Assembly (NCBI GenBank): GCA_017506865.1
Contig: JAFCMP010000086.1
Span: 62,001 to 126,000, forward strand
DNA length: 64,000 bases
Source of the DNA: Tribonema minus
Taxonomy: Eukaryota > Sar > Xanthophyceae > Tribonematales > Tribonemataceae
Direction: 5' to 3'
This document shows, piece after piece, positions 28,045 to 63,625 of this stretch. The notes under the pieces were generated by a model. That model had not been told where the DNA came from. It worked only from the letters and a program-made list of their open reading frames with translations, and searched no databases. The number at the start of each line of letters is the position of its first letter. The stretch's first letter is position 1. A program made the translations under genes and the position numbers.

Positions 28045-31000
28045 TCAGAATCCCTCAAAGAGTTTTTGTGGGCCAGTGTACGGGATGACGCGTACATCAT
28101 CGTTGATTGTGGCAAAGTGGCTGGTGTCCTGGGCGTTGGAGACAGCAGGTCGGTAGGGCGGCTCCATCTTCTTGTTGAACAGCTGCGATTGAGGTGCAAA
28201 AGCAAGGAGGAGAGCGGCATCAATGCTTGGCACACACACACGTGTTCTGCATATAATGAAGTGTTGACATTACCACAACCACTCAGACTAAACTTCTTCT
28301 TTCAAGTCCGAGCTGTGCTCGAAAAACAAGCAAGGATCACACCGCATGTCGTTAATCTTTTTGATTCATAGCCAATTACAACGAGTGCCCAGGCACCAGG
28401 TACAGCAACCTGAAGATGATGCACTACCAAACTTGTATCACTGAATGCGCCGCATGCTGCAAGGAGCATAAGAGCGCTTCAAAGCGAAAACTCCACAGAT
28501 GATGGTTTCATAACATGTTCAAGTTGTTTGGTGGTCCACTCATGCCTGCACATAGGCCATGATCATCCCGGTTTGGTTTACAACCAGTGACTGCTGCCGC
28601 AGGCTAGACTACCTGAGAGTGCTTGATTGCGCTAGTCAGTGAGTTGACTTGGCTCAAGTGTTGGACACCCAAGAGAATGATACTTCAAAGTACACAAACA
28701 CACATTCGCGCATCAAAGTGCACACACTGACGTACTGACACTTGTGTCAAAAGCAGCACAGAGGCATTGTTATCAAGATGGTTTAGAGTACAAGACTCAC
28801 ATCGTCCCAGTTGAAGTTGTTCTTAGTGAACCACGGGTGCTCTAGGATATCGCGCACGCCGTTGTTGAGGTTGCCCAGTCGGAAGGCAGGGCTTGGTGTG
28901 AGTAACTTGCGCACCAGATCCTCTGCATCTCTGTCAAAACCTATTGGGAAGCTCAAAAACCGGTCACTCCTGCGGCAGCGGTAAGAATAGGTTGCAGCAC
29001 ACCAGAAACATGCGTGTCAGCATATTATCTACCACAAAGTGACACAGGGCAATACACGATGGCATGTGCCTTGAACATGAAAACTCAACTACATTGTCTA
29101 CACTTGCAACAAGTCACGCCGCAAGTGACACAAAGGGTGCAAGTGCAGTTTTGCAAAATGTTTGTCAAGGCAGGAGGTGCACCTACAATATTACTTGGAG
29201 CAGCTGCTGCAGCCACAGGCAAATGTGTACCACCATGCAACTCGCAGCACTAGGGTTAGGTTATGCGTTGCGCCGCTCCCCGCCCCAGGAGTAGCAGTGC
29301 CTGCCTTGCTGCAAAGACAGGGTGTGCCAGTGCCAGGGCAAAATGCTGCCCCCGCTAATGCGACCATAGCACGCCACACAATGGTCTCATTGTAGATTTC
29401 ACTCTGCCGCCAAGTAAGTCTGCCAAAAGCGATCAATCTAAGAGCAGCAGCTCGCCATCGCAGCCTTCACAGACCCAAGCATAATTACGCATCATAACAC
29501 ATGTGCTCATATCGCGAATGCTCGCCCACTGTCCAAATCCATACGTTTAAGTACATACACCTAGTAGCACATACTGCAACAGAGTAAGAGTGCCCGGCAG
29601 TGCGCGCGCACCCCATGGCCTTCTTGAACATGTCCGCCTGGCGCGGGTCTGTGAAGGGCATTGGAGATCTTGGCTGACCCAAATCTTACAACTAACCCTG
29701 CGCCTGACCCCTGACCACCTGTACCTAATGGACTTCATGTAGATCTCTGCCTGACGCGGGTCTGTGACAGGCCTTGAGTCTCCTGACCGATCACCATGCT
29801 TTGCCCAAACAAACACATTTGTACCTTGCAGTTCGACCGTAACCCTATCGCGACCCCCAGTGATATCAACCGCCATCCTATCGCGACCCCCCTCATACCT
29901 GATGGCCTTCTTGCAGATCTCGGCCTGGCGCAGGTGTGTGAAGGGCATTGGAGATCTCAAGTAGCCCAAACCCTGCGATTCACTCAAACCCTACACTTTC
30001 CCCTGCACCTAACTCCCCATACCTGATGGCCTTCTTGAAGATCTCGGCCTGGCGTGGGTCTGTGACAGGCGCTGAGATCTCCCAGTCAATCACTATGCTT
30101 GCCAAAAAATAGATGCAACCCTGAACCTCAACCACAACCCTAGAATCTCAACCGTAACCCTATCGTGACCCCCTGAAATGTCAACAATAACCTCACTATC
30201 GCGACCCCCCGTACCTGATGGCCTTCTTGAAGATCTCGGCCTGGCGCGGGTCCGTGAAGGGCGTCCGTCCCACAAGCAGCTCGTAAATGAAGCAGCCAAG
30301 AGCCCAGTAGTCAACGCTCTTGTCGTGGCCACGCGACAGCACCAGCTCGGGGGCCAGGTAGTCGGGGGTGCCGCACAGCGTGAAGGACTTGGTCTGGAGG
30401 GTGGCGCCCTTCTTGAAGGGGATGCGCTTGGCAAAGCCAAAGTCAATCATCTGCGGAGAGTGCGTGTCGGGGTGCAAAGGGTGGGTGTACGGTTATGCAC
30501 AGGAGCAGGGATGTTTGTTTGTACATGCTTGAACAGCTCCACTCATGAATGTGAATACCGATAGAAAGGGCTAGGGACGCAGCAATGTGTGCAGCGCGGG
30601 GTGGAGTGAGGGCATATCCTGCATTTGCTGTTGCAGGCAAGTATCAAGGCTCATGAATTGACAGCCGCGCTCTGTCACCTGAAGTACATAGAGGCAACAG
30701 TGGCCGTTTACCACCGACACAGCATGTACATAAAGAGTTTACCTAACCCTAACCCTAACCCTAAACCAAGTCTTCGTTTGTTGGCTGCACGATGCATCGC
30801 TGCTTCTTTGAGATGTTAACCCAGAAGTTACGTAAGCAAACACATCAGCAGCATGTGTCAAAACACAGCACACTTGTTGAAGTACACACCTTGATGTAGC
30901 CGTCCTGTGCCACCAGCAGATTCTCAGGCTGCAGGAGAGAGTAGCAGCAAGCAAACAACAGAGATCAGGATAAGCCATCATAATGTTTCCAAGATTGTAC

Positions 31001-34000
31001 AACACAGATGAAGAAGCAGGGCAAGGGGTGCCATTGAGCCTTCCGTCTCTTCCATTGAGCCTTCCGTCTCTTCCATTGAGCCTTCTGTCTCTTAAGTTGG
31101 CCAGCCGCTGATGCCATGCTTGACTGTTATGGTCTGTAGATAGCAAGAGACGGGGCGCTACTGCCAACGCCTAAGGCCAATTGTGTGCGGAAAGTGGTGA
31201 GAGGTGAGACGCCGCCAGTGAGCACATGATTTTAAATCAAAATCTTATGGGGCTGGGCAAGTCTGCAGCACACAACAAGTGTTCAGTGACCATGGGACCT
31301 TACCATCCCATATTGACACAAATCTCTCTTGAACTTTGGAGCAGGAGAAGGCAGAAAGAAGACTGCACTTGCTCGTGGGACCTACTTGTTTCCTTTGAAG
31401 ACCTTTTGTGCTACCTGCATCTACCTGCCGACTTGTTCTGGGATGGGCTTGCTTGACTAAAACAACGTCAATCTCGGAAAGCGGACACAATTGTCATCTT
31501 GAGCTGCGATTGGAGGCACGCAAGAATCGGCGCCAATATTAGAACCCCTGAGGTGGACCAAGAGCTGACTCCCCTGAAGAATTTGTGAACGTGATTTGAC
31601 AACCACAACACTCCCTAACCCTAACCCTAACCCTATTGCAAACCCCACGGTCGACGAAGACCTGAGAGCCGACTCGGCTAGAGAAGCTGTGAACATCATC
31701 TGGACAACCACAACACATCAAGTGTGTAGATTGACGAACACCGTACCTTGAGATCGCGGTAGGCGACACTCATCTTGATTTAGACAACCACGACGCCTGA
31801 AGTGGTAGATTGACAAACGCCGTACCTTCAGATCCCTGTATGCGACGCTCATCTTGTGCAGGTACTGCAGGCACAGCACTACGCTGCCTCCGTAGAAGCG
31901 CGCGGTGTGTGCCTGGAAGCCGCCCATGTTCGTGTGCGGAATCAGCTTGAACTGCGAGGCAGTGCGAGGCAAGTAGGGGTGAGCAACAGAGCAGATGGTG
32001 AGGTGACAAGAAACAATGTATAAAGTGGAGTTGAGCTACACAGTTTGTTTTCTTGAAGCACATTTCAGCAGCATGCGAACCCTTCCCCAACATTTGTGCT
32101 AGACAGGAATGAAACAGCGCACAACCTCTGTGATACGTACAAATTACGTTCCATCACTGAGGAATTGCTCATGTATGTCAATCTGTATGTGAGGGGTGGG
32201 GTGCATGCTGCTCACAACATTCCGAGTTGAACCTACTCAACCAAGCAGTGTGCCATGTGGTCAGCAGCTGGTGAAGCCTTCAGGTGCATTGCCACCCACC
32301 TGAGAGCGAGCGATGGCGAAAGCAACATTGTCATTCACAAACTCACCCGCTTAAAATATCACGTGCTGCGGCAGCAACAACACCGTACCTTTGCTTTTTC
32401 ATAAATGTAGCTCCAAAGCTCCCCACCCAGCAGCAGCTCTGTGAGCATAAGTAGCTCGTCCCGTGTGTTGTAAGTGCAAATCAGGTCCAGTACCAGCGGG
32501 TGGTCGCACGCCATGAGAATGTTCTTCTCGTTCAGAATGTTCCGCTGCTGGTGACTCTTGGCAATCTGTGGCCAACCAAGGGGGACAGCAAAGCGGCGGC
32601 GGAGTGTCACTTCTTGAATTTGCATCGCTGGTGCCAGGGAACCTGTTCAGTAAACTGACAGCACTCATGTGGCATACGCTACATGTGTGTATATGGCAGC
32701 GCAACAGGTCAGCATGGTGAGAGACGAGCAGCGTGCACAAGGTGACTGTTACTTGAGCTGTGGCACTTCAAGTCAAACCACATGGGTGGTGTGTTGGCAG
32801 CAATGGCCAGGCTGGCATGGCATGCTGTTCAGTACAAAAAGCTTCAACACTGAATGCAGCGTGCTGACACAGGCTGTCCACCGATCCCCAACATCATTTA
32901 GCTGACCAAATCAACACACCTGCATCGGACCACCTGTGCCTTCACTATGCTCTTAAGTGCAAAGACCTCTCTATTACTGTCATTATGGACCATCCTTGAT
33001 GCCATTGACAATGCCAGTAGTACAACCTGAATCAATCATGTGAAACAGCGGTGAAGTGCATTGAACTGTACAATGCTTGCATGAGTATGTCTGTATAATA
33101 TATATAACGCACCTGCGCCTTCATCATGCTCTTGAGCGCAAAGACATCCCCCGTTTTCTGGTGCTGCACTAGCTGCACGCGCCCAAATGTGCCCGACCCA
33201 AGCATGCCGATGCGCTTGAGATCCTCCAGAGCTATGGGATCGCGGCGCTTCTTGGAAGTGGGCTTCAGGCCCAGGACTTCTTCGCCGTGAGACTCGCGTT
33301 TGCTTATCTCACGCTCCAGAATCTGCAGGGCAGACGTACATCAAAGCAAATGAGAGCTGTGCAGTAAAAACAGTTGCTTATCTCACGCTCCAGGATCTGC
33401 ACGGCAGGTATGTGTGTATTGAATCAAATGAGAGCTGCGCTTTGGTGATGGTGCACTTTGGTAATGGACCAGTGTGTTGCTGCGTGTGAAGGCTACACTT
33501 CGACCGTGCTTTGAGCGTTTGCTGATCTCACGCTCCAAGACCTGCGCGGCAGGTATATCAAGTATTGAAGCAAATGAGAGCTGCGCGCTTGGTACCAGAC
33601 CAGTGTCTGCTACACTCTTGGCTGTGCTGCGAGTATTGGGTGCTTCCAAGAGTCAAAATCATGCCAGACCACACGTTAGAGCTGCGCTTACTCGAACATA
33701 GAAAGTTGCTTATCTCACGCTCCAGGATCTGCAGGGCAGATGTATAGTGACACAAATGATGAGCGCTACGCGTCGGTGGCAGACCAGTGTCTCAGTTCGC
33801 AAGGGAAGGCTACGCTCTGGCTGTGCGTTGAGTATTTTGTGGTCTTAACACTCAAAATCATTGTTGTGCACAGGAGCTGCGTTTAGTCAAACAGACCAGG
33901 ATGGCTTCATCTACAGGCAACACTCTGAATGTGCTTCACATCCTAACCCTAACCCCTAACCCCGAGTCATGGTCTGCGTAACCAAACTTGCATGGCGGGT

Positions 34001-37000
34001 GGGCACTCACATTGTCCCTAAGAACCGTCAAGTGCAATCATGTGAATTGACACTTCGAAGCATCTGTTTGCACTTCTGCCGCCACCCCGCGTGTAAAGTA
34101 CATACTCATTGCTGCTGCACACAAACTCAGGAATGTTTAGGCAGTCCACATTAGCTGACTAGTGACATCAAAGCACCTGTTCTGTAAATCCCTCAGCCTG
34201 CCGCAGCAACTTTGATCCAGTAGAGTTTCCCCTCTCTAGCACCATTGTTCAATTTAGCGTTGTCATAGTCGTTCAGGCATCAAAGATCAACCTCTTGTGT
34301 GAGAGTGCGCCAACGCAGAATTGAAGTCACTACTTCACCTTCTCAAGCCCCCAGCAGCCTGTTGAACTCATCCCTCTCCAGCACATATTCAAAGTTGCAC
34401 TTTCACTATAAAAACTTTTGGACAGTACAAAGCATCTAATTCAGTTACACGAATGTAACTGCTTTACCTTCTCAAGCGGCCCCAGCAGCCTGTTGAAGTC
34501 GCCCCTCTCAAGCACCAGACAGTCAACATATCCACAGGCAATCACGTTGGCTCCACGAGGCTCGTTCTTCAGCAGAGCACGTTCCCCAAAGAAGTCGCCC
34601 TTTCCCAGGCGCAGCAGCTCCTTCTCTTCCCCTGTTCCCGCGGCGGTGAGAGTGCACCTCACTTCACCCTCGTTGATGATGTAGAAGCGCGTGCCCTGAG
34701 AGCACCAAGTGAACAACTTATTTAGCATTGTTTTCTTGGGTGACAGCATATAAATGTATGTGTAGGGTGTGAAAATGTGCAGGTCATAGCAGCTGGTGAG
34801 GGTGCACCTCATATCATCCTTGTTAATGGTGTAGAAGCGCGTGCCCTGAAGACACCAAGTCAGGGCAACGATTTTTCAATTGTTAACTTGGGTGACAGCG
34901 TACAACTGTATGTGTATAGTCCATAGCAGCTGGTGAGGGTGCACCTCACCTCACCTTCGTTGATGATGTAAACGCGCTTGCCCTGGGAACACCAAGTGAG
35001 GATAGAGTTCATTGGTCATTTTTTGTCAAACCGGCCACAGTGGTGACTTGAAGTTTATACAAAGCCAATCTGAACTTAATCGCAGGTGCTTGATTTGCCC
35101 TGTAATAACAGTCGCCGTCAGTCGTCGTTCCACAGAGGCCGCAAGCACACAGAGGCGGCCATGCTGTTGATTGCAAGTCCAACTTCAACCTCAAATTTCA
35201 TGCAGACTTCGAAGTACTTCCTCTCCCTATCGAATGAAATGCTCACCGTCCTCATTCTTCAAGTACATCTTCGCCCTGTCGAATGACATGCTCACCATCC
35301 TCAAAGGACAGGGCATCTGCCACACTGTAAACTTCAAGTTCATGGTCAACTTCAACTTCAATGCATACTTCAACTACCTCTTCGCCCTGTCGAATGACGT
35401 AGTCGCCGTCCTCAAAGGACTGCACGCACAGGGCATCTGCCACGCTGCTCAGCTCCATGTCGGTGAGCTTGGTGAGCAGGGGAACGCTCTTGAGAATGCG
35501 CAGGCGCATGTTCCCCTGGAGAACGTTCTGCAGGGGTCCCAGTAGCGCAAAGAACTGCAACGGCGCAGGATGATAAACAAAGACGCAAAAGAAATATGCC
35601 CATGTGAGCACGCAGCGCGGCCGTGACCTATCAAGAGAGTGGTTTTGGCAGCATACCTCATCGCATTGAAGTTTGTGAATAGTATGCACTCGGCCAGTTA
35701 AAACGCTAGCTACCTCACAAGAATCCAGTGTGCGCATGCACTGCAGAGGAGAGGCATTGTTGTGAAGCACCAGCAGGTGCACCTCGGGCACTATTATGGA
35801 CTTGAACAGGCAAAAAAGTCGCAGGTGGCATGCTGCACCCGTATTGAAGTTGATGTTGAAGTGTGTACAGCACCGCAATGGGAGCCTCCACCGTGCCTAC
35901 AGTGAAGTTGAAGACAATCACTCATGGCCTGCGCCGGCATTGAAGTTGATGCTAACGGAAACTGTCACCCAATGTCGGAAACAAAAAATGCGAGTCAAAT
36001 TGGTAAGTCTTTGTTGCTCAAAGCTTTGCAAGGTGTCAATGGAGGCATATGCTCGTTCAGACTCGAGAAACGGCAGCAGCAGATACCGCAACCAATATCA
36101 GTTCGCTACCGGTCTGATGTCAATGATGCGTCACACTCATAGCATTCTGAGCATTTCAGCGCTGCATTTGAGCTCTCAACTATATACCCCACTGGCCCCA
36201 TTTCTGACATCCAGAGGGCAATCCCTCCCACTGCATTCAGACATCCAGAGGGCAATCCCTCCCACCGCATTCAGATTGAGCGTCATAATTTACCAAGCAG
36301 CTAGGCTGATCATAGGGCAGCCTGGGCCCTCGAAACACTATGTTCAGGCCCCTCTGACTGACCTTGCTCCTGTCTAGCGAAAGGCACCTGACGGGCCCCC
36401 CCTCTGCAATGCAGTTGGCCGCACGCGGCTCCTCCAGCATTAGAGCCATCTCTCCAAAGTAGTCGCCGGGGCCTAGCGCAAGCAGCGGTGCCTCTGTCGT
36501 GTCGGTGGCGCTGCGCCATTGGGTGCATCGTACCGTGCCGTCCTCTATGAGGTAGAAGGTGTCGCCCTGAGAGAGAGGGCGCAAAGAGTCGCGCAGCATT
36601 GCAGAGTTGGTGTGCGCTTCATTACATGAATGCATATGTAGCGATTTCATGCATGTGAATTGATGAGTGTCGGTGGCGGTGCGCCACTGCGTGCACCGCA
36701 CGGTACCGTCCCCTATGGGGTAGAAGGTGTCGCACTGAGAGAGGAGGCGCAAAGTGTTGTGCAGCATCGTAGAGTTGGTGTGCGCTTCATTACATGAGTG
36801 CGCATGTAATGATTTCATGAATGTGAGTTCATGCAATTCAGCGGCGCTGCGCCGCTGTGTGCACCGCACGGCGCTGTCCTCTATGTCCCCTGGGAGCATA
36901 CAGCGAGAGGAGTCGTGTACCGTTGGAGAGTTGGTGTGCGCTTCGTAACATGAATACATATGTAGTGATTTCATGGCTGTGAACTCAGGCATGTCAACGG

Positions 37001-40000
37001 CGCTGCGCCACCATGTGCATCGCACAGTGCCGTTCTCCATGAAATGGACAATGTCGTACTCGAGGTTAGGATGAGGAACAAAACATAATGACTTTGCTGC
37101 AAAGACAAGGAGTTCAGCACAAGATTTCCCTGCTGTGCTTGCACTTGGGAAGAAGAGACGAGGCAGCTGCAGCTGAGCTGCATGTTGAACGATGCTAATC
37201 AACTGAATTGCTTGAATTGTGACGCAGTCAGTTTGTGGGAGCACGTTGACTGCCATGCTTGCATTGCTATTGCGTCAATGTGGTCGCTGCAAATACAATG
37301 TCATTTCCTTTACCCCAACCCTAACTCAACCCATGTACCAATTGAACGTGCTCGTAGACGTGGGAGAGGGGTCAAGCGTGATATGCTGAGGACGGAACAA
37401 CTTGAGTGACAGAAATGTAGATCCACATAACCCTTAAGTGTTTCCTAGCCTTGTAAGAAGAAGCAAGTGCAAGCAGACAGTAGCTCGGTATTGGACTCAT
37501 TGAGGCACCAGTGCACCACACCATGCATGTTCACGATCAAGTGCATGTACGCATCAGCAACTTCAATGTGTGACACTGCTACGCATATGCCATACTCCTT
37601 CGACCGGAGTATCAACTGGAGCTGTTCAAACCTCCTGTGACAACTTCAACAAGAAACGGAACCACCGGCCTGTTTACGCTTTCGTCCTCAAGCCTTCTTA
37701 CTGTTGTGGTATGTATGTGCAGGAGAGTGTGCTCCATTGTATGTGCATGCGAAATAATTGATTGAATGCATCACCTGCTCCCCCTGGCGTATGATGTAAG
37801 CGTCTTGGCCGAAGGTGATGGGCTCAAGTGCGTCAGCGATCTTGGTGACCTGCTCGTTGGTGAGGGGCTTGAGCAGCTCCACATGCCTCAGGAAGTCACA
37901 CCTTTGCACCACCTGTAACATCCAGCAAGTGTAAGTTACTAGGTTAGTTGGGTGGGGCTGAAAGCAGAGGAGGCAGAGGCGCTGGATGTTGGTGACATGC
38001 TCATTGCAACCAACGCCACAAAATCTCATTGGTGTCGAAAGATGAATGCCGGCACCTGTTTTTGTTGTTTTGCAGGACCCTACACACGACCAGCCGGTAT
38101 TCTATTGGTTACACATCAATACATGACGATACACATAAGTGGCAGGCACAAAACCTTCACATATGCTTACGCCATTTGATGCTTGCTCATTTGTCAGCAA
38201 TGCTCAGCACGCTCGCCTCTGCACCGCCCGTAGCCTACTGTGACAGTTACAATGTATGTGAGACGCACGAGAATGATTCAGTACCCACCTTGCCGCCATG
38301 AGCCAACGGTCGTACGTGACCTCCATACATAGTACTTTATACCTACATACCCTAAGCCCATACCCAACCTGAAGCAGCGCCCACCTAACGCTATGCCTAC
38401 TGTATGAATACTGCTCATTCAATGTGCAGCAGTCATCGTGAGGAGTCCCGTGGCACAGTATACCTACCCTGAGCACAAGTAAGCCTACCCTGAGGCTATA
38501 CCTACATACCCTGATTACTTTTTTTCGCCAGTATGTGAGCGGGTTCATGGCCCAGTATATCTACCCTGAGTCCATACCTTCCCTGGGTGCAGCATGCCTG
38601 TACTGAAACAGTCGTCTCAAGAAGCTACCATTCCACGGTCCAGTACACCTACACGCTAGCCCTGAACTCTGCGCCCTAACCCTAACCCTGTACCTTGACT
38701 CAGAGCCTGTGTGTGCCTACCCTGAGGATACGCCAACCCCTAAATGCAGCATACCTGGCCCGAAGCGGTTGTTGCCAGCAGCTGCCTGAACGTACAGTCC
38801 CATGGCCCAGTGTACCTACTGTATCTGTGACTCAATGCCTGTCTTTTGTAAATCCTGAGGCAACACCTACCCTAGATGCAGCATACCTGGCCGGAAGCGG
38901 TAGTTGCCAGCAGCTGCCTGAAAGTGCGTAGTCCCATGGTCCAAGCCGTGCAGTCGGTGGTGGCGCGCACTGTGGCGGCTCTTTCGCAGTTGTACATGAG
39001 AGCCAGCTCGCCAAAACTGCAGAATACAGACATACAAGCAGGGCAGCAGCACCAGATGAATCAGAGGGATCTCAGCGATTCAGAGTAAGCTTTCTAAAAA
39101 ACAGAAACTTCAAACGGAAATGTACGTTGAACTCATTGATCATGGCCTCTGGTGCAATTGCTGCAATCTCACTGAGCTGTAAGTGCGCAATGATTGTCCA
39201 AGTTGAAGTTTCCACCATGGCAAAATCTGTCATATCAAGTAGAAGTATGACCATTCATACTTCAGGCACGTAAGCGCTTGTGCCTACCTGCAATCATACA
39301 CACCAGAAACGAGTCACGTTGGCCACACCTACTTCGACCCCACAACTCGCAATCACAACAGATTCGTGTGTGGAGGACATGCTGAAACTGAAATAAAGTT
39401 GCACAAAGCAGTTCACATTCGATTGGTGATTTGAGGTAAGCAAGCGGCGCATGGGAGCATGTGCGACACTTTGCTTATTGAAGTTGAAGTTGCAGCGCAG
39501 GAGCCGCAGGAGTGCCCCCTCTTGACGAAAGACTATTGTCCTCTGTTGCTGTGCTGCACTGCTGTTTCCGCTTGGGTGATCTACTATTACATCAAGGCCT
39601 AGGATGAGCAGCTGCAACAGTGGTTTGGTGAGGGTGAGTATGATGCCTTGAGACATTGAGGTAAGTGACATGCCTGTACTTGAAGAACACAACTGCACAG
39701 CGCGTTCTCCCATGCTGCTGCATGTGCATTTTGGATTTGGCATGCTTGGTGTTCCGCTTGGAATTGAGGGCAGCGCTGGGGTAAGGCTGCTGTCAAACAG
39801 TACCCGGTTGAGAATACGTGTCTTGCATAATGCATTTTCGCAGTTCATATTGCATGTGCACCACCACATGCTGCCATGAACGCCGAAACGTCAACCGCAA
39901 CGGGCGCATGCCCAATGATAGTAAGCGGAACATGCCCATGGTACACCTACCAACGGTCTGTAGCGTACATGAATGTGCAAGATGTGCGATCATGCCCTTT

Positions 40001-42298: not shown

Positions 42299-42304
42299 TG
42301 TCAT

Positions 42305-42934: not shown

Positions 42935-44244
42935 ATGCTGATAGATGAGGATGACGCGCTGGCAAATAAAGAGGAGCTGGCCCTTGCGCTTGGCGAGCGC
43001 CTGGTCTCGCCCACTGGAGTTCCAGCTCTCCGACGGAGCTCTGCACAGGGTGCATGCGTCGTTGGGCATTTGCGATTGCAAGCGCACCAAAACTCGTTGG
43101 CGCTGCGCTGGGAGCCTGCCTCAGAGCAGCTGCTATTGACGAGCGATACAGAGGCAAAAAAATCGGACTGCAGCGAGCCCCTGTGTTTTGCTGCAGATGT
43201 CGCTGATCTGCAATTGTCTGCTGAAACGAGTACCGCCAAGGTCTGCCTGCGATGGCGAATACTGCAGCAGATGCGGTCCGTCCAGCTCGTAATGGACGGG
43301 CCCGACGAGAGGGACGCATTGGTGTTGTGCCTGGAAAGGTTAAAGCGGGAGCTGGAGCAGGAAGGGGGACACCCACAACTGAAACACGAGGTGCGTGCCT
43401 GCTACTGTGGCCGTCATAGAGACCTGATAATGAAGCAGCTTGCCTGGCTGTGGCGTGTGCGTAATTGCTGATGTTGGCATCATACTGATCATCAGCGAGT
43501 GATGCAAAATCGACTCATCTACTCTACTCATCTACATAATGTTGCAGCATGTCAACAGGTCCGCATGGTCGGCACCAGCTTTCTCATGCATACCATTTTG
43601 ACAGAAGTGGCTCCTCTAGTGTACATGAATGATACTCAAGTACGCTGTTCGCCAGAAGCGCAAGTCGAGCAGTGATTGGTGACTGGATGCCATACTGTCA
43701 TGCGTGCCAGCCACACTTTGCTGTAGAGCGCAGCGAACCAGGTATTACATGCGAGCCACGCAATGCGGCGCGTGGAGTCTGATTTCTGTGCAAGTGCAGG
43801 TGTGCGCATCGCACAGGCACAATGTATTCTGCAGGGATTCCTGTGCATGGACATACTGCAGCAGTACATGTCTCAACTGGCACAAGCGGTTGGTGTTTGT
43901 TCAACACCGCGTTCACTGTTTTCATCACCCACGTGCGCCACCACGCACCAGAGATCAAACACTGGCATGCGCTTGCAGTTGCACGAACTGCAACCATTGC
44001 CGGCACACCACCCCACAAACTCGCACACGCCAACCCCCCCCAACCCTAACCCTAGACCTAACCCTAACAACGCGCAGATGCCCAGCGCGGCACACGCGCA
44101 GGCCGCCTCAGCAGCAGCAGCGCCAGCAGCAGCAGCAGCGCCAGCAGCAGCAGCAGCGCCAGCAGCAGCGCCAGTAGTAGCAGCAGCAGCAGCAGCGCCA
44201 GCAGCAGCGCCAGCAGCAGCAACAGCGGCGGCAGCACCAGCACC

Positions 44245-44275
<31 letters not shown>

Positions 44276-48627: not shown

Positions 48628-49157
48628 CATAAGCAGTCACTGCCCAAGCCACTTGCAGGCAACTCAGGAGAGGGCACATGACACAAAAGTACTGAGCATA
48701 GCGGCAGGGCAGGTAGGTACCTAACCTCTTGAACCATCGCTGAATCCTTCAAGCAGGCTCATAAGCGGCAATCGCAAACAGCAATGGCGCATTCTTGAAT
48801 ATGCCGTTGTCAACAACACGCACAACGATGCAGCAGTGCAGGAGCAGGAGCCATGTGTGATGTCAAATGACCATTCGGCAGAACATGTATATTGTTGACA
48901 GCTGGCCCAGACGGCGTTGAACACAACCACCGCAGTGCGTCCGCTGAGCATTATCATCAGCTATCGGCACATGACCAACAGATACTTCACGACAGTCACA
49001 TGTATATGTGCATCACTTACAGATCGGGACAACATGGCAAGGGTGTTGAGCGATCAAACCTTCAAGTTGCGAACTACCGCCGCGCAGCATGCCCCCATGC
49101 CAGGCAGGGCTGTGGCACCGCAGCACCGCTCAACACATTGCGTACACACAAGCGCAG

Positions 49158-52100
49158 CTATGCGGTGCCAGACACGGCCGTGTGCTTGCCGCCCCCCGTG
49201 CCGTTGAGCGCGACAGGATGCGGCAGCTCTGCAGGGGAGCCCTTCCGCAGGCGCTTGGGCGCGCCGTGCGTGTTGACAAAGTCCTTGAGGTCGTTGTCCG
49301 CGTAGCGCTCGGCTGGGGAGTACATCTCTTCATCTGCGATGAAGCACTGGAGGATGGTGGCGGTGGTCATGCTGAAGAGCTCTGCAAAGACGCTCGCTAC
49401 CAGGTAGGCCAGGACACCCACAAAGATGGTCGGGCCGACAAACGAGTGCAGCTCGTTGCCAATCTGTGTGGTGCGGGGGTTAAAGGGGGTGTGGCAAGAG
49501 GGGGGGGGGTTAGGGGAGTAGAGTTGCAGTACAGTCTGAGCAGAGGTAGATGCGTACAGACCGATTGGGATCTGGTGATGATGGTAGTGCTGCGGGGTGC
49601 GTGAGCACTGAGTTCGTCAGCAGAGACATAGGGGCTGGCTAGGAAAATTGTTGAATTTGCGTATCTGTGCTAAGGGTTGATGGATGGATCACTGCACTAG
49701 GGGGAAAATGAGGCAAGCGAGAGGTAGCACATGATGCTTCATCATCAGTAGAGAGGTATAAAGGTGGTGGGACGTGAAGTGTGCTCAGTAACAGACAACC
49801 CTGTACTAGCAAGGGGGGAGGAGACAAAGGGGGGCAAAGTCAAGGCAAAACTCGGTGGAAGCAACCAAGCAGGGACAGCGATGAAAGGCTGTTGCCATGA
49901 CCTGTTACCGCAAGGTCACAACTACGACCAATCATACTAGAATTGGCACCAGCAGACCTAAAAAGTATGGGTCAGTACTTCAAGTTGTAGTTTCTCGCCA
50001 CCCTAAGTATGTGCTGAAGTACGACCAGATGAACTGCACAAAACTTCAAGTTGAATTTTCTCACCATGGCGTCCCGCCCTAAGTACGTCGCAAGTATGCG
50101 CCGAAGAGTTATCAGATGAACATTCACTGCATAAGACTTCAAATTCAAGTTTCTCACCGTCGCGTCCAGCCCCAGGTACGTCGCCGCCATGGTCGCGAGG
50201 CAGATGACCAGCTTCATGATGATGATCATGAATTCACTGACCATGCTCACTGCGCCGACGCGCACAATGTTCCGCGCAATAAGAAAGAAGGCCTCCTTGC
50301 CGCTCTTGCAGAAGCCAGTAGAGAAGAGGGCCGTCTGGATGTAGGCGTTCTTGTTGATGAACTGCATGCACTTCTGGAGGCACCAGAAGCAGCACTGGCA
50401 GCAGCACAGGGCGTACTGCGCAATCTTGTTGCCGCTCGCCTTGGCCTTCTTCTGGAACCACGCTATTATCGCTCGAATCATCTGACACATAGCACAACGT
50501 GCGGATATGTGATGTGAGGCATCAATTTTGAAGTTGGCCTGCAATCGGTAGGTACCGGCGGCATAAGTAGCACTTAAGAGTAGTTGTAATAAGAGATGTC
50601 AAGCTTGTTGCCGCTGGCCTTGGCCTTCTTCTGGAACCACGCTATTATCGCTCGGATCATCTGCGGCACACATGACAGCGTGTGGCGATGTGATTTGTGA
50701 AGCACCAATTTTGAGGTTTTCGTGCAATCAGCAGGTATTTACTGGGGGTCCAGTTATTGATAGCACTCGGGAAGTACAACAAGGGACTATCAATGGCATC
50801 GGTTCATTGTGCCATCATGTTGTTGCAGCGCGCGCAGCAGAAGTGTATGCGGTGACATGTGGACCATCAATTTGAAGTGTGCATATTCAGCTAGAAGCTC
50901 ATCCACAGCAGGAAGATGTACTCTGCACTGCTGGTGCTGCTGGGCTGAATGCAGATGCAGGACAACATGTGAGGGTAGGCAGTGGTGAAGAAAGTCAGCA
51001 TGCGTATCAACGGCAGACTTCAAGTGAGACTTCAAGTGCATTGAAATCGAGCACGCCATTCCGAGTATTGACAGAGCCAAGTGACCCTGCACATTTGATT
51101 AACCAGCGACGTAGCTCGAAGTTGTTTTTGGAAAAAGAGACGAACCTCACATGTGAACGCGTGCCACTGTTTCAGCGGGCGCAGCATGGTAACATCAACT
51201 GTTGGCACCATCTGGCTTGTCTCTAGTAAACCCTAACCTAATTCTAGCCCTAATATAACCCTAACCCTAACCCAATACAAGCAAGTCTGTACCTGTATGA
51301 TTGCGATGATGAGAGAGCCAAAGGCAGCGGTTCCCATGTGGTACCACATGCCATCCTTCATGGCCTTGAAAAACGTGCCGCTACCCAGAGTCGACTTGTC
51401 GCGTGTGAAGAAGTACTTGACGACCGCCAACGCCACCACTATCTGCACAATCAGTACACATTCAGAGCGAGTATGGTCAATATAAAGTATGCGTGTGCGG
51501 AAGGGTATGAGTAAGTGCAGTTCAGGTATGTCACTGCACAGAATTCCAGCTGTAAGGAGCGGCACTCAGGGTTGACAACAGTTGAAGTATGTAGTTGAAG
51601 CGCGCATGACGCGTTGATTGAGGTTGTTGCACTTCATCAGCGTAGTTTGGCGTACTTCAGCAGTGCTCAACAGACTGCAGTACAGGAGTGCTGTGAGGCA
51701 GTATGTTACTGTATGTATGTGTGACAATCAAAAACATGCACACAACTAGTACGAATCCACTGGCAACTGTCAAATACAGCTTGCATGGATCAACGGAGTT
51801 GTAGCAAGTACGTGTTGAAAAGCAGACAACAACTGTGCGCAGACACTCTTGAAGTTGAATTGTCTTGAACCCACTTAAAGCATGCAACTGGCAAAGGCGG
51901 CAGCTTCAACGATGCACACAAAGGTCACAACAGCCCGTGCGCATGCCGAAACAAACTAGCGATAGTTCCCTAACCCTAACCCTAACACCACCCCAAAACA
52001 CACAACCAAACAGACAGATTTGGCAACACCCGCCCCGAAACAAATAAACCAAACAGACAGATTTTGCACCACTCACCTGCCCCATGGCAATGATGAACTG

Positions 52101-55100
52101 GGTCGTCCAGAAGAGGCAAAATAGCAGGTACCAGCCCATGCCCTGCACCTCAGAGCCATATGTAACCGTCTTCACCTCCAGACCCGCCACCGTGGTCGTT
52201 GAGAAGTCTCCCATGGAGGCCACGTATACGCCTGTATACACGCGCGGAGCGATGTGATGTGACAGCGTTTTGCCTCAGTGCTCGGGTGGCGTACTCACTG
52301 GGGTAGTGTGCAACTGACGTATTGTTGATTGTGTCAGTCTCGGGTGGCATACTCACTGGGGCAAGTGATGTGTTGTCGGTTTTGTTAGTCAGTCTCAGGT
52401 GGCATACTCACTGGGGCAGTGCGCAACTAGCGTGTTGTCGATGGGCAACGTACGTGGTGACATCCGGATTTGGCCTGCTCTGTGGCACCGTGCACCATCA
52501 GCTTACCACCGCAATACTGACACTTTGAGATATGATGCAGTGGCAAGCAACTCGTCCATAGCACCTGTGCGGAGCGTTGTGACGAGACGTCGTTAAGTTG
52601 AGCGCTGCTTGGCAAGTTAGGGCCCAACCCTAAATGGGGACAGTATGGCAGTGCCCTGAAGAGAAGGGACAGCGTTGGTTCATGTCGGCTGAAATGCATC
52701 CAACAGCCGTGAGATTTGGGGAGGGGTGCACATACGCTTATTATGCATGGCCCTGCCTCAGAGGTGCACTTCCTTGTACAATGAGCAGCCTGCCGTTGTG
52801 ATTTATGACATGTATGTATGTATACGTCAAGTCACACGACTGTCCTTACCATCACCATTGCTGCAAGTGATGAATACTGATGCTTGAATACCAGTGCACA
52901 CATGGCAGCGTACAAAAGTCATTGCTTTCGGCATATAGCACTTGTACTCGCTCTACCTCACAAATCTTGATCATATGCCAACGCTTCGGCTATCACTGCA
53001 GCATGGAGTAAGGGTTAGGGTTAGGGTTAGGTGTAGTCACCACACAAGCATGCATCTAGGGTTAGGGTTAACGTGACACATGAAGAGACCATCTGCACCA
53101 TGGAAATGAGTGGCACGACGAAGAGGGGTTAGGATCAGGGTCAGGGTTACACATAGGGCTAGGGTTACACCGCTGAATTACGATCCAAGTATGTAGCCAC
53201 CGTAGGAAACGTTTGGCACGAAGAACAGCACCAGTCCCACCGCCTCCGTCACTACACAAACACACACACAGGTTTAGCGTACCACTTGAAATTTGATCCA
53301 CTCACCGTAGAAAACGAGTGGCACGAAGAACAGCACCAGCCCCACCGCCTCCACCACCGGCATGAGGATCATGGCGGGTATCTTGCCAATGGCGCGCGCG
53401 GCCTCCTTCATGATGCTGGTGGCGAGGCGAATGCGTCTGCACATGAACAGGGCCAGGCACGCAAACAGCCCTGCCAGGACGTAGCCCGCTATGCCAAAGA
53501 TCCTCGCAATGGTGATCTGGGTGTGGCGGGTGTGAACAACAAGTACAAAAGGAGAACGGCAATGTGTCAGGCCAGGAAACTGCATCAAGTTGATTAGGCC
53601 AATGTGTGTGCGCTGTGATGCTGTGATGCTGATGTACAGCCGCATTATAGGTCATCTGGTCAACAAACAGTGGCAGAGACGCATAGATAGGGGCCTGTGT
53701 GTCCGCAGTGCCAGTGATCCCCTTCACATTCATATCACTTGAATGAGTGGCATCATTCATGAATGGCAACGCCACCACGCCTGCACATGAGCGAGAATGG
53801 CTGTACTTCACCCTAATTCAGTCACCTAGGGTTAGGGCAGACAGTTAGGATCAAAGTGCCCACCTGCACGTCGGTGCGGGTCAGGGTTAACGTTAGGGTT
53901 ACGTGGGTAATCCTAACCCTAAATCTATCCCTAGCATTAGGATTAGGGCTACTTTAGGGTTAGATTTGGAATTAGGGCTAGGTACCTGGACGTCGGTGTG
54001 CTGGTTGGTGGTATCGGCAGCCCACTCGTCCCCCTTGGTGTACAGCCCATAGCCCACAGCAGCGAACAGCGCAATGACCGCCAGAATGCTGCCCCAGGTC
54101 ATGATCGCGACGACGCCCGGCACCCGCAGCAGCAGGCAGTACACGAACCCCATCACGAGGCTGAAGCCAAACCCAAAGCCGAGGATCCAGTTGCGCGCCG
54201 TGTAAATGTCTGCGAGGAACTGCTGCATGTAGCTCATCTGCGAGTTGAGGCTGACGAACGCGTCCGCGATCGCGGGATCCGTGAACAGGCAGTGGTTCAG
54301 CACGTCCACCGACTCTATCTGGTACATGCACGCGCCGTCGCCGCCGCCGCTGAACGTGGCAGGGTCGGTGACCCCTGTGAGATCGGCGCACTGCTGAGCA
54401 TCAGCGCCCTTGCAGTTGAGCTGGTCGGCGCCGCCGTTTGCAAAGGCCGCGTCGGGCGTGGTGCACGTGTAGAGGGTGTTGAGGTCGGTAGCGGCGGGGC
54501 AGTCGGCTACGCACACGCCCGTGCCGTCAAACCTGCGTGATGGCGAGAGCGTGTACGCAATGAATGCAATGAGGTTTGGCGCGGTGACAGCGTACAGCAA
54601 CGTTCCGCTTATGTTGAGGTTGGACAGCACTGGCTCAGCACATGTTGACGTTGCGTCCTGTTGGGCACTGCTGACGTGGTAGTTCGTGTTTTCCCTCCTG
54701 ATACGCCGTGATTGCATCTGGCAACACATGCACTGGCGGTGAGTCTTGTGCCTGCTTGTGGCTCTTGGGTGTCCATCGCTGGCATGGTGGTGAGCTACAG
54801 TATACGCTCTCAGGTGATATACGGTGCGTAAGGGAGCAGGAGGCGGCGTTGGAATAAAGCTGTGGCCAGATCTTATTGCTGCTACTGGCTCGTGTGTGCA
54901 CAGTTGAAGTGATTGTTGAAGTAGTTGTTGGCGTTGTCATCGGACGCCGCGTCAGTGACAAGTCAGGCAGCGGTGGTCAAGTGTTGAGAGTCTGTGAGAG
55001 TTCAAAGTAAGGCCGGGCCAAAAGTCTGTAAAAGTTCATGTTGAAGCTGGGCCACAAGTTGGAAGTATGTATGCATTACAACGGACCTATCCTCAGCGCC

Positions 55101-58060: not shown

Positions 58061-61000
58061 ATCCACCATCTCCGCCTCCTCGCTGCTCCCCACGTAGTCA
58101 AAGTAGCTCTCGATGCTGCTGATGCGGCGCAGCACCGCGCCCGCGGCGCCACCGCTCGCGGCGCGCGTCTGCGCGGAGCCGAAGAGCGCCTGCGCGCGCT
58201 GGTTCAGCTTGCTGAGCGCTGCTATGTTGCCGAGCACTGCCTCGAGTTCGGCGTAGTGGTGGTAGAGCTGCGCGTGGTAGGGGGCGACTTCGAGGCCGCG
58301 TTCGTAGAGGTCGCGCGCCTTGGCGTAGTTGCCCAGCTTGGCCTCCATGTTGCCGTAGCTGCGGTAGAGGAGGCCGTGCTTGGGGTCGGCCTTGATGCCC
58401 GTCTCATAGATCTGTGCACTCAGGGTTAGGGTTAGGTGGTAGAGACAGGGGCAAGGTTTAGGTTAAAAAGCGGGGGGTCGTAGGGCGGTTTGCCAAGGGT
58501 GCGATATGCGCAGCTATGAAGATTGCAGCAGCATAGATGCATATGCGGACGAGCAGTGGCTTGGCACAGTACATACTATACGTACTGCAGCGCTCGCCCT
58601 TCCCCTCCATGGCCGCGTACACCGCCCAGCAGGCTCTGACACTATGCATACGGTATGTACGACAAGACACTCTACATACAGTAACATGGAAGCACACCTT
58701 GCGCGCCTTGGCGTAGCTCTCGCCCTTCTCCTCAATCGCCGCGTACACCGTCCAGCACGCCCCGTGGTGCGGCTCCAGCTCCAGCGCCTCCTCAATCAGC
58801 GTGCGCGCCGTATCTGCGTCACCCGCGCGCACCTCAAAGCACGCCCACGCCTGCAGCAGCCGCACCACGCTGGTGTGGCCGCGGCAGCGCTCAATGCCGG
58901 CCTTGAGAAGGTTGCGCGCGCGCGTCGCGTGCCCCGCCGCAGCCTCGAAGAGCGCGTACGCCTGGCGCGATACGGTATGCATGTACGGCATGCAGGATTA
59001 GGGTAGGTAGGCATTGGGATAAAGCATGCCCCGCCGCAGCCTCAAAGAGCGCGTATACCTGGATGATAACATGGTATGCATGAATGGCATGTGGGGTCAG
59101 GGTAGGTTGGCACTATGATAAGAGGTGACCCGCTGCAGCCTCACAGAGCGCGTATGCCTGGAAAGTGATACTACGGTATGCATGTGTGGCATGCAGGATT
59201 AAGGTGGGTTGGCATTGGGATAAGGGGTGCCCGGGTGCCACTGAAGAGAGTGTACGCCTTAAGTGATGAGGCATGTAGGTGGCAATCAGGGTTAGGGATA
59301 GCGCTGCGCTCAATGCCGGCCGCGTGCCCTCAGAGAGAGAACGCGCGCCTGCGAGACGAGGGAGCAATATGGTTTCATTCTTGGCCGCCTCAAAGAGCGC
59401 GCAATGCATGGAGCGATGCGGTATGAACGGCGATCAGGGTCACGATCGGCGTTCGGTTCACGGTTATCATGACTTGAATCAGTTGGCAACTTGCGCCTGC
59501 TGATCATTGCAACCGCTATAAGCTGAACCTGGCGTGCGTTGGCAAGGTTCAGCGGCCGCCTGCCTTTGCCTGCAACTGCAACCGCAACTGCATGCAGTGA
59601 CGCGACCAAATAGACAAGTGACGCCCCAGGTCATCGTTTTCTCGACAAAGGTCGCAGCGCCACAGGTTTGAGGTGCTTACATTTACCTAGGCAGACGGAG
59701 GGATTGACTACGTGCACGGCTGGATTGGGAAGTCGAGCTAGCAACACAAATGCTGCGACCCCCAAACATCAAGGTAGTAAGCGCTTTCAACTTCCCCGAA
59801 GGCTGCTGCCGCTTCCCTGGTGAGTTGCTTGGAACTACATGTGCCACCTACTCAAGTTACAATTACGCACCGATATACCCACAAGAGGTACCTACTTGCC
59901 ACAGCGCGCCGAGTATACGTGGCGCTTTACTGCTGCGCACTGCATGAGCCACATACTTGAACACGACATTATTAACACGATACATACCCAAATACATACA
60001 TGCCTGCCCCTACTACACACACACAGTGCGGCGCCGCTCGCTCACCTGCCACAGCGCGGAAAGCATGGCCAAACACAGCATATCTTCGTTTCAAAACGTC
60101 ATGAAATGCCAATACTTTCAATATTACATACCTACCCGCTCCTACTACATGCACGCTTCGCTCACCTGCCACAGCGCGGAGTGCGTGGGTACAACATATT
60201 CGTTCTGAGAGTGTTCTGAAACTCTAATACTTCTATTCAACGATTCTTACACTCGTTCCCGCCCCTATACACCCCCAAAACTGCGGCGCCGTGCGCGCTC
60301 ACCTGCCACAGCGCGGAGTGCGTGGGCACCGCGCGGATGCCCCCCTCAAACAGCCCCCGCGCCGCCTCCGCGTTCCCCTCGCGCGCCTCCAGCACCCCCC
60401 ACGCCTGCCACGCATGCGCGTGCCCCCTGTCCGCCACCACCGCTCTCCGAAAGAACTCCCGCGCCTCCGCCAGACACCCCAGCCGCACCTCCGCGAGAGC
60501 AGCGCCCAGCAGCAGCGGCGAATTGGTGGGCGCGCGCGCGAGTCCCGCCGCGAACGCCGCGCGCGCCGCCGCCGGCGCGCGCTCGCTCAGCTCCAGCGCT
60601 CCCAGCGAGTGCGACAGGAACGACACATCTTCCGTCGCGCCGGCCTCTGACATGCCGCGGCCGAAGAGCGCGCGCGCCGCCGCGACGTTCCCCTGGCGCA
60701 GCTCCACCGAGCCGAGGCCGTGCCAGACGCTGGCCATGTCGGTGCAGTGCGCGGCGACGCCGCGGCGGAAGACGGCGCGCGCCGCGTCGACGTCGCCCCA
60801 GCGCGCCTCCGTCGCGCCGTACGCGTTGTACAGCGGGCCGTGCTTGGGGTCCGCGCGGATGCCGAGTTCAAAGAGGCGGCGCGCGTTCGCGCGGCAGCGC
60901 TCGACATCGGCGTCCGCCTCCGCGCTGCGCGCGCGCTCGAGGCCCAGCCGCTTCCCCGTTGATGTCAGGATGGCGTCCGTGGCGTCATCATCCTCTTTAC

Positions 61001-63625
61001 TGTTGGGTGAGGGGGTGAGGTCGGTGGCAGCGGCGGCGGCGGCAGCGCGTTCGGCCGCGAGCTTGTCTTCAAGCAGGGCCCAGGCCACAAAGGCGGGCGC
61101 GGTGGGGCGGATCTGGGTAGGTGGGGAGGGTGTGTGTGTGCGTGGTGAAAGCTTGAGTGAGATGTGGCGCAGGAATTGTGTGATTGGGGAAGGGGGGGGG
61201 GTGGGGGGGGGGGCTGCAAGAGGTGGGCGAGGCGTGTCATTGAGCTGAACTTGAAGTTTGATCTGCGGTTCCTCAAGTTCAGACGCTTGGCACAGAAAGC
61301 GGCAGGCTCTACTTGAGCAGGTTGGCTACACAGCGTACAATCACGCAGCAGTGGGCCTACCACATGCATCCCGTCCTGTACAAAACAGCCTCAGATGAAG
61401 GTGCAGGTTCCAGCAGGGGTCACTTGAGGTTATACTTGAACTTGTACAAGAAGTTAGCGTGCACACCTGAGTGCTGGCACGGTACAGCTCGATAGCCTGC
61501 GCGTCGATTGCCGAGCGTCTCTCTTCAGCAGTCACTTGAGGTTGTACTTGAAGCTACACTTGAAATCGTGGGTGTGTGTGTCACCTGTCTGCTGGCGTGG
61601 TACAGCTAGATGGCCTGCACATGATTGCCGAGCTGCTACTCGGTGTTCACTTGAACTGATACTTGAAGTTCTGCTTTGAGCGTTACTTGAAGTCATTGGT
61701 GTGCGTCACCTGTGTGCTGGCGCGGTACAGCTCGATCGCCTGCGCGTGATTGCCAAGCCGCTCCTCGATAGTGCCTTCCGTTTGGAGCAAGGACTGTTCC
61801 GCAGGGAACCGCGAGCGCGCGCTGTGAACGATTTCCCGAGCACGTTCCAGGTTCCCCGCGCGCTGCTCCAGCGTTGCCCACATGTTGAAGAGCTGGGCGT
61901 CGCGTTGCGGTAGATCTGCCGCATCAGGGGTAGGTTCCAACAAGGGTAGGTATTATGAAAGTGTTCAGGTAGGGTCAGGGTTAGCAGTGAGCCCGGTGGC
62001 GGTGCTCAACAAAACATGGGCAAAACTGCACCAAGTGAGATGCTTGCAAAATGACCAGCAGCTGTTGTGATCCAGCACACAGATGTGTGCGCGCGTGTAC
62101 TGTACTCAGTATGCATACTCTGCGGTGGTGCCGTGCGCTCACTACAAAAAATTGTTGCAGTTGGGCTAGGGTGGTGATTTTGTGACCCATGTCAAGAAAC
62201 GGTGATCTTGTGACCCATGGTAAGAAACGCAATCACCAAATAGCGTTGAGCGGTGCCACATTGGTGCATCAAAAGATGTGCCGTACGCCGTAAACTTCAC
62301 AAGAAAAGTATATACCTCTCCAGGGCATACCACTACACAGGCCTACACCGCTGCATGCAATGACCACAATTAGTGGAAGTTTGTCACATTAGCTCAAACC
62401 TCAGAAGTATGTATCCATCACATGCATTCGCGCGTGCATGCACATTTGCCAGCATCTCCCTGGCCTTATTGGTAGTCTTGTCACCCGCCTCGTGTCCACT
62501 TTGCCTGAGCAATGAGTCCCCGTGTGGTCTCTAAGCGGTGCACTAACAGATGCACTTCACTGAAGTATGACACTTTGTGTGTATATGTATCATACTTTGT
62601 AATTCCTACATGTGTATCCCACACGCGTGCGCACCTGCCGCATTCGCCAGTATCTCCCTGGCCTTGTTTGCGTGCCCCCGCCTCATCTCCAGCTGTGCCT
62701 GAGCGATGTGCACCTTGACATTGCCCTCGTCAAGCGCCTGCGCAGCCGCAAGCAGCGTCTCCGCTTGCTCCAGATCGCCGGTCTGTTTTGTGCAACACGA
62801 CATCAGATAATGTCAGCATGCTGAACGCCAATGCCATGCGCAAGGTTAGCGTAATACGTGCCAAGCTGACACTTCAAGCAGCATGCAGCTGTGCGCAGGT
62901 GCTTGTACTACCACTGCCATGTGCAGGTTCTAGCACGTAGCAAGCGTGCAGGCGCACAAAAGGTCGCTGTGCCTTTACTTTTGGTGTCGTCGGCATGTCG
63001 TCCAGGCTCATTCAGCATTGAGGTTTGAGGTTTGATGTTCAAAGTTGAACATCCAAAGCCAGGACCAACAGCTCAGCTGTGAGAAGATCGCCAGTGTGAC
63101 TATTGCGCTGGGTATACAGTGTACACATCAACAGCCCTGTGCCACTCATATAGTGCAAATTACCCCCTCTCGTCAATATCATTGGTACATGCATCCCGTT
63201 CAATTACCATTTGCGCAGCGCCCAGCAAGTACTCAAACGATGATGCTCTGTGTAACCCTAGCAGTGTGTGGTTGAGATAGGTGTATATGTATTCTGGTGT
63301 GTTCACCTGTTCTCGTGTGTTCACCTGCTCTGTGTAACCCTAGCAGTGTGTGACTAGGCGTACGTATACTTGTATATTAACCTGCTCTGTGCAGTAGCGT
63401 GTGACTAGGGTAGTACGTATACTGGTAAGTTGACCTGCTTTGTGTAAGTAGCGTGTGACTAGGGTAAGCATACTCATACTGGTATTTCACCTGCTCTTCT
63501 ATCCGCGCCCAAGCCATGTACACGTGGCATTTGTCCTCGCACAGGTCCGTGCCGCTCTTGAACACCTCGCGCGCCGTTTTCAAGTCCCCTGCGCACGCCT
63601 CCAACTCCCCCAGCGCCGTGCAGAC
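57944..63625 (-). CDS. HAT/TPR-repeat protein, Mbb1/HCF107-like (5' end beyond window)
   Basis: Six exons (63491-63625, 62635-62782, 61710-61915, 60303-61112, 58698-58961, 57944-58411) join in phase to 676 residues; earlier exons lie beyond the right edge. The protein is almost entirely half-a-TPR repeats of about 34 residues with the W-x-x-(W/L/Y)-G/A-x-x-E core: WARIEEQTGDLEQAETLLAA, NMWATLEQRAGNLERAREIV, WQAWGVLEAREGNAEAARGL, LWQAYALFEAAAGHATRARN and YRSYGNMEAKLGNYAKARDL. The closest family I know is plastid Mbb1/HCF107, which protects psbB and other plastid mRNA 5' ends; other HAT proteins act in RNA processing, so the target is inferred. The acidic C-terminus (SSEEAEMVDLDD) ends in a poly-Ala tract. 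Exon-edge copies lie next to nearly every exon. Confidence 0.87.
58575..58645 (-). repeat. Copy of the 58698-58961 exon 3' edge (HAT gene)
   Basis: CGCTCGCCCTTCCCCTCCAT and GCCGCGTACACCG repeat the exon end encoding TVYAAIEEKGE, about 120 bp beyond the true donor. Confidence 0.9.
59022..59425 (-). repeat. Four copies of the 58698-58961 exon 5' edge (HAT gene)
   Basis: CCGCAGCCTCAAAGAGCGCG-type blocks encoding AYALFEAAAG recur at about 59028, 59127, 59230 and 59385. The first three are about 100 bp apart, and the first two keep the acceptor dinucleotide. Confidence 0.92.
59885..60195 (-). repeat. Three copies of the 60303-61112 exon 3' edge (HAT gene)
   Basis: CACCTGCCACAGCGCGGA recurs at about 60049-60066 and 60168-60185, with a weaker form at 59893. 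All match the exon end and donor at 60303. Confidence 0.92.
61465..61640 (-). repeat. Two copies of the 61710-61915 exon 3' edge (HAT gene)
   Basis: GCTGGCACGGTACAGCTCGA and a diverged form repeat the end of the exon (AIELYRASTQ) at about 61470 and 61595. Each has a CACCTG donor side. Confidence 0.9.
62440..62520 (-). repeat. Copy of the 62635-62782 exon 3' edge (HAT gene)
   Basis: GCCAGCATCTCCCTGGCCTT with a later GCCTGAGCAATG repeats the exon end (AQLEMRRG...AREILANA). Confidence 0.88.
63245..63490 (-). repeat. Four short tandem units at the 63491 donor (HAT gene)
   Basis: ACCTGCTCTGTGTAA with GTGTGACTAGG repeats every 50-60 bp and matches the exon end EEQ plus donor. Confidence 0.85.

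Follow-up and report, generated by a model that had tools for sequence, protein, structure and literature searches.

Exon-edge copies in the PKG gene and its neighbours

In the xanthophyte Tribonema minus, a yellow-green alga, introns of several genes contain diverged copies of the borders of their own neighbouring exons. These copies were studied in a stretch of 64,000 nucleotides (positions 62001-126000 of contig JAFCMP010000086.1, here C86, in an assembly of 158 Mb; hereafter the window), in which they adjoin exons of a gene for cGMP-dependent protein kinase (PKG), an SLC44 gene, a HAT/TPR-repeat gene and a gene previously read as PH-like. The tested sequence amounted to 144 kb, comprised of 84 kb of C86 (the window plus 20 kb) and 60 kb of a second contig, C423 (430001-490000), which carries another PKG gene; this is about 0.1% of the genome. 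A 40-bp probe taken from every internal exon edge was searched in the adjoining intron up to a distance of 1 kb, and exons shorter than 45 bp, introns shorter than 60 bp, and six (C86) and seven (C423) predicted “exons” that are themselves edge copies were excluded from the counts. A diverged copy was found in the adjoining intron for 38 of the 193 internal edges, with 69 copies in total. We attribute these copies to recurrent tandem duplication that is focused on splice junctions and lengthens introns, it would seem from their ends, a reading to which we give a probability of roughly 0.7.

Exons were predicted by a small hidden Markov model gene finder trained on the analysed sequence. The PKG models, with 14 stop-free exons in each paralog, could be compared with public proteins: a protein search with the joined exons of the window gene returned “putative cGMP-dependent protein kinase [Tribonema minus]” with 100% identity over 85% of the query, and a second T. 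minus PKG protein found by the same search is that of the C423 paralog. The GenBank proteins lie inside the models as unbroken stretches of 692 of 708 (C86) and 744 of 760 residues (C423), the final 16 residues missing in each, and the paralogs have all 13 introns at matching positions and in the same phase. Thus, the PKG exons agree with the public annotation, as does the use of the exon-proximal splice sites, which are the only ones used in the GenBank proteins; no copy is present in either protein. The exon borders of the other genes were set by the gene finder alone. In a DNA search the C423 locus appeared as a diverged paralog, with larger matching blocks 70-91% identical and most intron sequence unalignable, and the divergence between the two genes at fourfold sites is 0.79.

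The PKG gene occupies 28096-41331 on the minus strand of the window, and its copies are distributed over many of its introns. At donor edges, exon 30215-30450 is followed by four intronic copies (29607-29663, 29713-29776, 29891-29958 and 30012-30081, spanning 29607-30081), and single copies belong to exons 31826-31951 (at 31703-31777), 33113-33322 (32931-32969), 34468-34695 (34326-34384), 35378-35554 (35253-35327, within a block at 35158-35327 that holds another partial repeat) and 38887-39016 (38688-38809). At acceptor edges, three copies adjoin exon 33113-33322 (33374-33440, 33519-33586 and 33706-33764, in the span 33372-33893), two adjoin exon 34468-34695 (34795-35001), and one adjoins exon 40092-40387 (40503-40598). 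Exon 36363-36566 has tandem acceptor-edge copies with a period of 168 bp (36667-37042), of which the probe found one and BLAST three, at 36667, 36843 and 36999. Copies are present at 10 of the 24 PKG edges on C86, and at 12 of 24 on C423.

On the plus strand, donor-edge copies accompany exon 44078-44499 of the PH-like gene (44557-44651) and exon 45534-45912 (46068-46098). The remaining copies are on the minus strand. SLC44 exon 50158-50481 has a donor-edge copy (50005-50091, by BLAST only) and an acceptor-edge copy (50600-50737), and SLC44 exon 53306-53516 a donor-edge copy (53198-53247). Exon 58698-58961 of the HAT/TPR-repeat gene has a donor-edge copy (58589-58634, by BLAST only) and two acceptor-edge copies with a period of about 99 bp (59024-59238). 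Further donor-edge copies belong to exons 60303-61112 (60003-60192; the probe matches once, near 60167, and BLAST also at 60003-60071), 61710-61915 (two, 61419-61642) and 62635-62782 (62410-62514). Tandem repeats at 63244-63484, which approach predicted exon 63491-63625 to within 7 bp, were not confirmed by the automatic test as straddling its edge. In all, the strict 40-bp probe detects 26 copies at 18 edges in the window, with a few more from BLAST (for example 50005-50091, 58589-58634 and 63244-63439), so that the “over twenty blocks” of an earlier, sequence-only reading of the window is a fair count. That reading had also singled out the fructose-bisphosphatase (FBPase) and AlkB genes as free of copies; indeed, the predicted model that covers FBPase and an AlkB-like gene (13568-23937, plus strand) has copies at none of its 26 internal edges, and the first 28 kb of the window, these genes included, at none of 38 predicted edges.

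Specificity of the copies for exon edges

Local repeats in the tested sequence are almost exclusively direct: at offsets of 10-500 bp and a score of at least 50, direct and inverted repeats numbered 51 and 1 in C86, and 76 and 0 in C423. The edge probes gave no match as reverse complements (0/193), in shuffled introns (0/965), in the introns of other genes on both contigs (0/841) or when taken from the opposite edge of the exon (0/159). When probes were moved into the exon, matches fell to 24/182 at 20 bp, 9/170 at 40 bp, 4/157 at 60 bp and 1/141 at 80 bp, and those starting 100, 120 and 160 bp inside gave none (0/117, 0/102 and 0/70). Edge matches therefore exceed matches to exon interiors, a comparison that the sequence-only reading had named as a possible refutation. 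Across six settings of probe and threshold, 31-40 edges were positive and no reverse-complement match appeared in any. Exon-edge copies in neighbouring introns are confirmed as real.

Copies beside the 3′ ends of exons carry donors and those beside 5′ ends carry acceptors, as had been described from the sequence, and they are somewhat more frequent at donor edges (25/97) than at acceptor edges (13/96; p = 0.046). Outer edges of coding sequences (CDS) have a copy in 1 of 24 cases, and this one is an internal PKG edge of a gene split by the gene finder; the focus therefore lies on splice junctions and not on gene ends. An artefact of assembly was judged unlikely, given that the exon parts of the copies are 76-100% identical to the edge and that the paralog has copies of its own.

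Structure of the copies

The exonic stubs of the 69 copies measure 23-85 bp (median 46), the lower limit being imposed by the probe. Entire exons copied together with their two splice sites, as in the tandem exon duplication behind mutually exclusive exons, were not encountered; the exons from which the stubs derive are up to 810 bp long. The offset between edge and copy is mostly about 60-220 bp, with a median of 134 bp among the 37 first copies whose offset is no more than 230 bp, and in these at least 43 bp of intron separates edge and copy. Once mirrored, the two sides broadly resemble each other: the stub has a median of 48.5 bp at donors and 38 bp at acceptors, and the intron part one of 75.5 and 99 bp, respectively. 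For 11 of 38 first copies at least 90% of the offset is covered by the alignment, and these are plainly tandem; an example is 80349-80563, with an offset of 81 bp, a stub of 33 bp and an intron part of 48/48.

The exon parts of the copies match the true edge at 2664 of 3014 pooled positions (0.884) and the intron parts at 1772 of 2263 (0.783), which is close to the square of 0.884 (0.781). Taken together, the copies therefore decay as unconstrained DNA would while the exon stays constrained. The GT or AG dinucleotide is intact in 61 of the 66 copies whose alignment covers it. Retention of dinucleotide positions (126/132) is above that of the average stub position (0.884; p = 0.009), and the eight bases just inside the exon are retained almost equally (500/543), so that selection on the splice sites of the copies is not claimed. 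No sign of a purging of decoy splice sites was found in the copies.

Independent copies and intron growth in the PKG paralogs

At sites that separate the two PKG paralogs, the copies agree with their own exon in 287 cases, with the other paralog in 52 and with neither in 28, which indicates that most copies postdate the split of the paralogs; for the large array of exon 30215-30450 and the corresponding one on C423, the differing sites are too few for a decision. The 24 homologous edges carry copies in both paralogs in 4 cases (5.0 expected by chance), in C86 only in 6, in C423 only in 8 and in neither in 6. The copies of the two paralogs are mostly independent.

Copy number is associated with intron length. 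Among the 13 pairs of homologous PKG introns, each extra copy goes with a further 128 bp of length difference (rho 0.75, p = 0.003; linear p = 0.02). This slope lies near the median unit length, 134 bp, and over all 26 PKG introns the correlation of copy number with length is rho 0.66 (p = 0.0002). Leaving out one C423 edge with three copies, at which the gene finder split the gene, gives rho 0.51 (p = 0.07) for the pairs and rho 0.54 (p = 0.005) for all introns. Since longer introns give more room for copies, the direction is not proved by this correlation in itself. Local direct repeats take up 2,631 of 10,798 PKG intron bases in C86 (24%) and 4,558 of 13,481 in C423 (34%). These results support a recurring process in which introns gain exon-edge copies and become longer, as had been proposed from the sequence. 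From 69 copies at 193 edges and a horizon of detection of about 0.2 substitutions per site, a rough estimate would be that each edge gains nearly two copies for every neutral substitution per site.

Origin of the copies

The most likely model is that a short segment straddling a splice junction is duplicated in tandem. The original exon edge would keep its function, and the extra stub, splice site and flanking intron would join the intron, which would grow by about one unit. Since a copy has a single splice site and no more than 85 bp of exon, it would probably be passed over by a spliceosome that pairs sites across exons (exon definition). It would then decay neutrally while the exon is held by selection, and repeated events at one edge would yield arrays, with older copies sometimes duplicated again. 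The focus on junctions may reflect a mutational bias, such as breaks or strand slippage during transcription and splicing or at nucleosome borders of exons, followed by fill-in or end-joining; such a bias is preferred because duplications deep in introns, which would be equally neutral, are rare.

Several observations weigh against this reading. Strict tandemness is seen in a minority of first copies only (the 11 of 38 above). Under sequential tandem growth the nearest copy should be the youngest, yet the trend is weak: divergence increases away from the true edge in 38 pairs and decreases in 26 (p = 0.17), and the gradient described in the sequence-only reading is thus not significant. Although the pooled means fit neutral decay, the identities of exon part and intron part are uncorrelated from copy to copy (rho 0.02, n = 35). 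Near-identity over the whole length is absent among the copies, except for one at 97%. Ten other loci of 3-4 kb (three on C112 and one on C90) had copies at none of 32 predicted edges by the probe. In addition, some of the exon-masked repeat clusters considered next may stem from errors in gene models, non-PKG exons being predictions of the gene finder.

One competitor of a junction focus is that short tandem duplications arise uniformly in noncoding DNA, and that edge copies stand out only because conservation of the exon keeps them recognisable about twice as long. The decay figures do make pairs that include an exon edge visible for longer (0.884 as against 0.783). For this reason exons were masked and only noncoding-to-noncoding repeats were kept, since both partners then decay alike. 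Of 38 such local-repeat clusters 29 straddle an exon edge, whereas a uniform process with the same unit lengths predicts 5.9; within introns the figures are 27 of 36 and 6.5, and at least 27 was reached in none of 200,000 simulations. Uniform duplication combined with this ascertainment was rejected by simulation as the sole cause. The stubs point the same way, as none of the 69 exceeds 85 bp and those of first copies are shorter (mean 46 bp) than simulated under a uniform breakpoint model (59 bp; P = 0.0007). Masked repeat coverage on C423 drops from 10-22% within 600 bp of exons to 105 of 11,964 bases farther out, and is 0% in C86 intergenic sequence. On the other hand, 9 of the 38 clusters straddle no edge, repeats occur at 5 of 98 intron probes placed 600 bp in, compared with 16 of 179 at the edge, and masked repeats make up 2.8% of the intergenic bases of C423 as well as 299 of 2,226 C86 intron bases beyond 1 kb, the last figure fitting a single cluster at 10487-10793. 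On balance, a uniform process is an unlikely explanation of the whole.

About as improbable is that the copies were made at breaks next to junctions with nascent pre-mRNA or spliceosome-bound RNA as the template, rather than by tandem duplication at the DNA level. Such a mechanism would explain the restriction to junctions (38 of 193 internal edges as against 1 of 24 CDS outer edges), the limited stubs on the exon side and the fact that far copies are as exon-like as near ones. However, the copies are direct and local, with none in the introns of other genes, and a share of the first copies fills the offset as tandem duplication predicts.

Slightly less probable again is that duplication is widespread and that copies bearing splice sites are retained by selection, as spare sites, splicing enhancers or sources of isoforms. 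The retained dinucleotides would fit selection, yet the eight adjacent exon positions are kept nearly as well, so that the excess may reflect the anchoring of alignments; moreover, stubs and flanks decay together as neutral DNA, and the GenBank PKG proteins are without any copy. That the arrays are left over from the birth of introns through duplication of exon segments with AGGT, a proposed route with published cases (PMC4974935) and one to which the sequence-only reading had pointed, can virtually be dismissed, since the copies include flanking intron, adjoin their own edge and lie inside introns shared by the paralogs (13/13), whereas that model would place the copy at the far end of the new intron.

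Junction-focused tandem duplication can be stated in a stronger form, in which a mutational process targeted to junctions and coupled to transcription, splicing or exon chromatin duplicates a region from about −80 to +160 bp at donors and acceptors, and is a main motor of intron growth in T. minus. We hold this form only tentatively, at rather less than an even chance.

Other loci and repeats

Outside C86 and C423, local direct repeats at two kinase loci (2111-2472 of locus L004 on C120 and 1119-1434 of locus L022 on C525) extend 16-20 bp into a predicted exon, which hints at a pattern not limited to these two contigs. On C246, a second kinesin match at 701357-701488 (profile positions 268-311) follows 42 bp after the exon match ending at position 311; it may be an edge copy whose stub exceeds the ceiling of 85 bp. 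A kinase match of 156.4 bits with the same query range and open-frame length occurs on C144, C223 and C278, which suggests a recently multiplied segment or unpurged duplicates.

The stretches C90:764001-824000 and C179:152001-212000 are mostly 93-95% identical, contain few introns and have predicted proteins that by eye resemble a DNA methyltransferase and others; they may be large mobile or viral-like elements, or else divergent haplotypes. Copies were present at none of their 106 internal edges (57 and 49). With this count and predicted genes that look mobile-element-like, the pair cannot serve as a haplotype pair to date the events.

Two further kinds of repeat were observed. One, about 48-72 bp long with 81-98% identity, is dispersed in either orientation and lies in the window at 10965-11016 and 48559-48630, each of which has six places in C423:430001-490000; perhaps it is a small mobile element. 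The other consists of interstitial telomere-type TTAGGG/CCCTAA runs of at least two units, of which there are 14 in the 84 kb of C86 (for example at 30742-30763, 31614-31635, 46024-46058 and 51229-51276 of the window), 5 in the 60 kb of C423 and 0 in the 120 kb of C90 and C179.

Relation to known modes of intron gain and implications

Introner elements are a recurrent, lineage-specific source of intron sequence and form dispersed families shared between genes. The T. minus copies differ from these in that edges match their own intron only (0/841 in other introns). Similar sequence across unrelated genes was not found either: a search with 10 kb of the PKG gene matched, among the matches listed, C423 and one segment each on C525 and C64.

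Closer parallels are found among introns that arose by duplication. Birth of introns by tandem duplication has been described for ATP2A1 and for a potato RdRp gene, the potato case spanning an intron-exon boundary (PMC4974935). These cases share with T. minus a tandem duplication within a gene, in potato one that reuses inherited splice signals, and the direct, local duplication with a splice site that the AGGT model entails is seen here as well (51 and 76 direct against 1 and 0 inverted repeats). By contrast, a single event makes a new intron in ATP2A1 and potato (PMC4974935), whereas dozens of events lengthen existing introns in T. minus, with the duplicated signals unused in the annotated PKG proteins. 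In the PKG genes no intron is new in a formerly continuous exon; because all 13 introns are shared and the copies lie inside them by their own edge, growth of existing introns and not AGGT-type birth is indicated.

In Daphnia pulex, internal repeats were reported in 55 of 90 new introns compared with 100 of 617 established ones and were attributed to staggered double-strand breaks, the direct repeats being 4-12 bp where an exon was involved (PMC4202315). Direct repeats inside introns beyond chance are likewise present in T. minus, and a passive trend to longer introns is common to both; T. minus differs in its units of about 60-220 bp, their position beside their own edge and introns older than the split of the paralogs. 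For novel introns and near intron pairs in Drosophila, exonic sequence was duplicated at splice-like motifs, yet at new intron positions, and the passages concerned do not describe recurrent edge copying into existing introns (PMC2891723). A paper of 2007 connects tandem repeats with introns, to go by its title. Among the papers listed in searches of an open-licence library, none, judged by title and abstract opening, presents a case of recurrent exon-edge copying into existing introns, and none deals with Tribonema introns.

The origin of intron sequence and the lengthening of introns are an old question, open to this day, for which few cases have been caught. Here a sizeable share of intron DNA can be traced to its source, and the system brings its own clock as well as a paired control, the paralog. 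Should splice junctions be mutational hotspots, the mutation spectrum would be shaped by splicing or exon chromatin. In addition, the many intact decoy splice sites offer a natural test of the choice of true exons.
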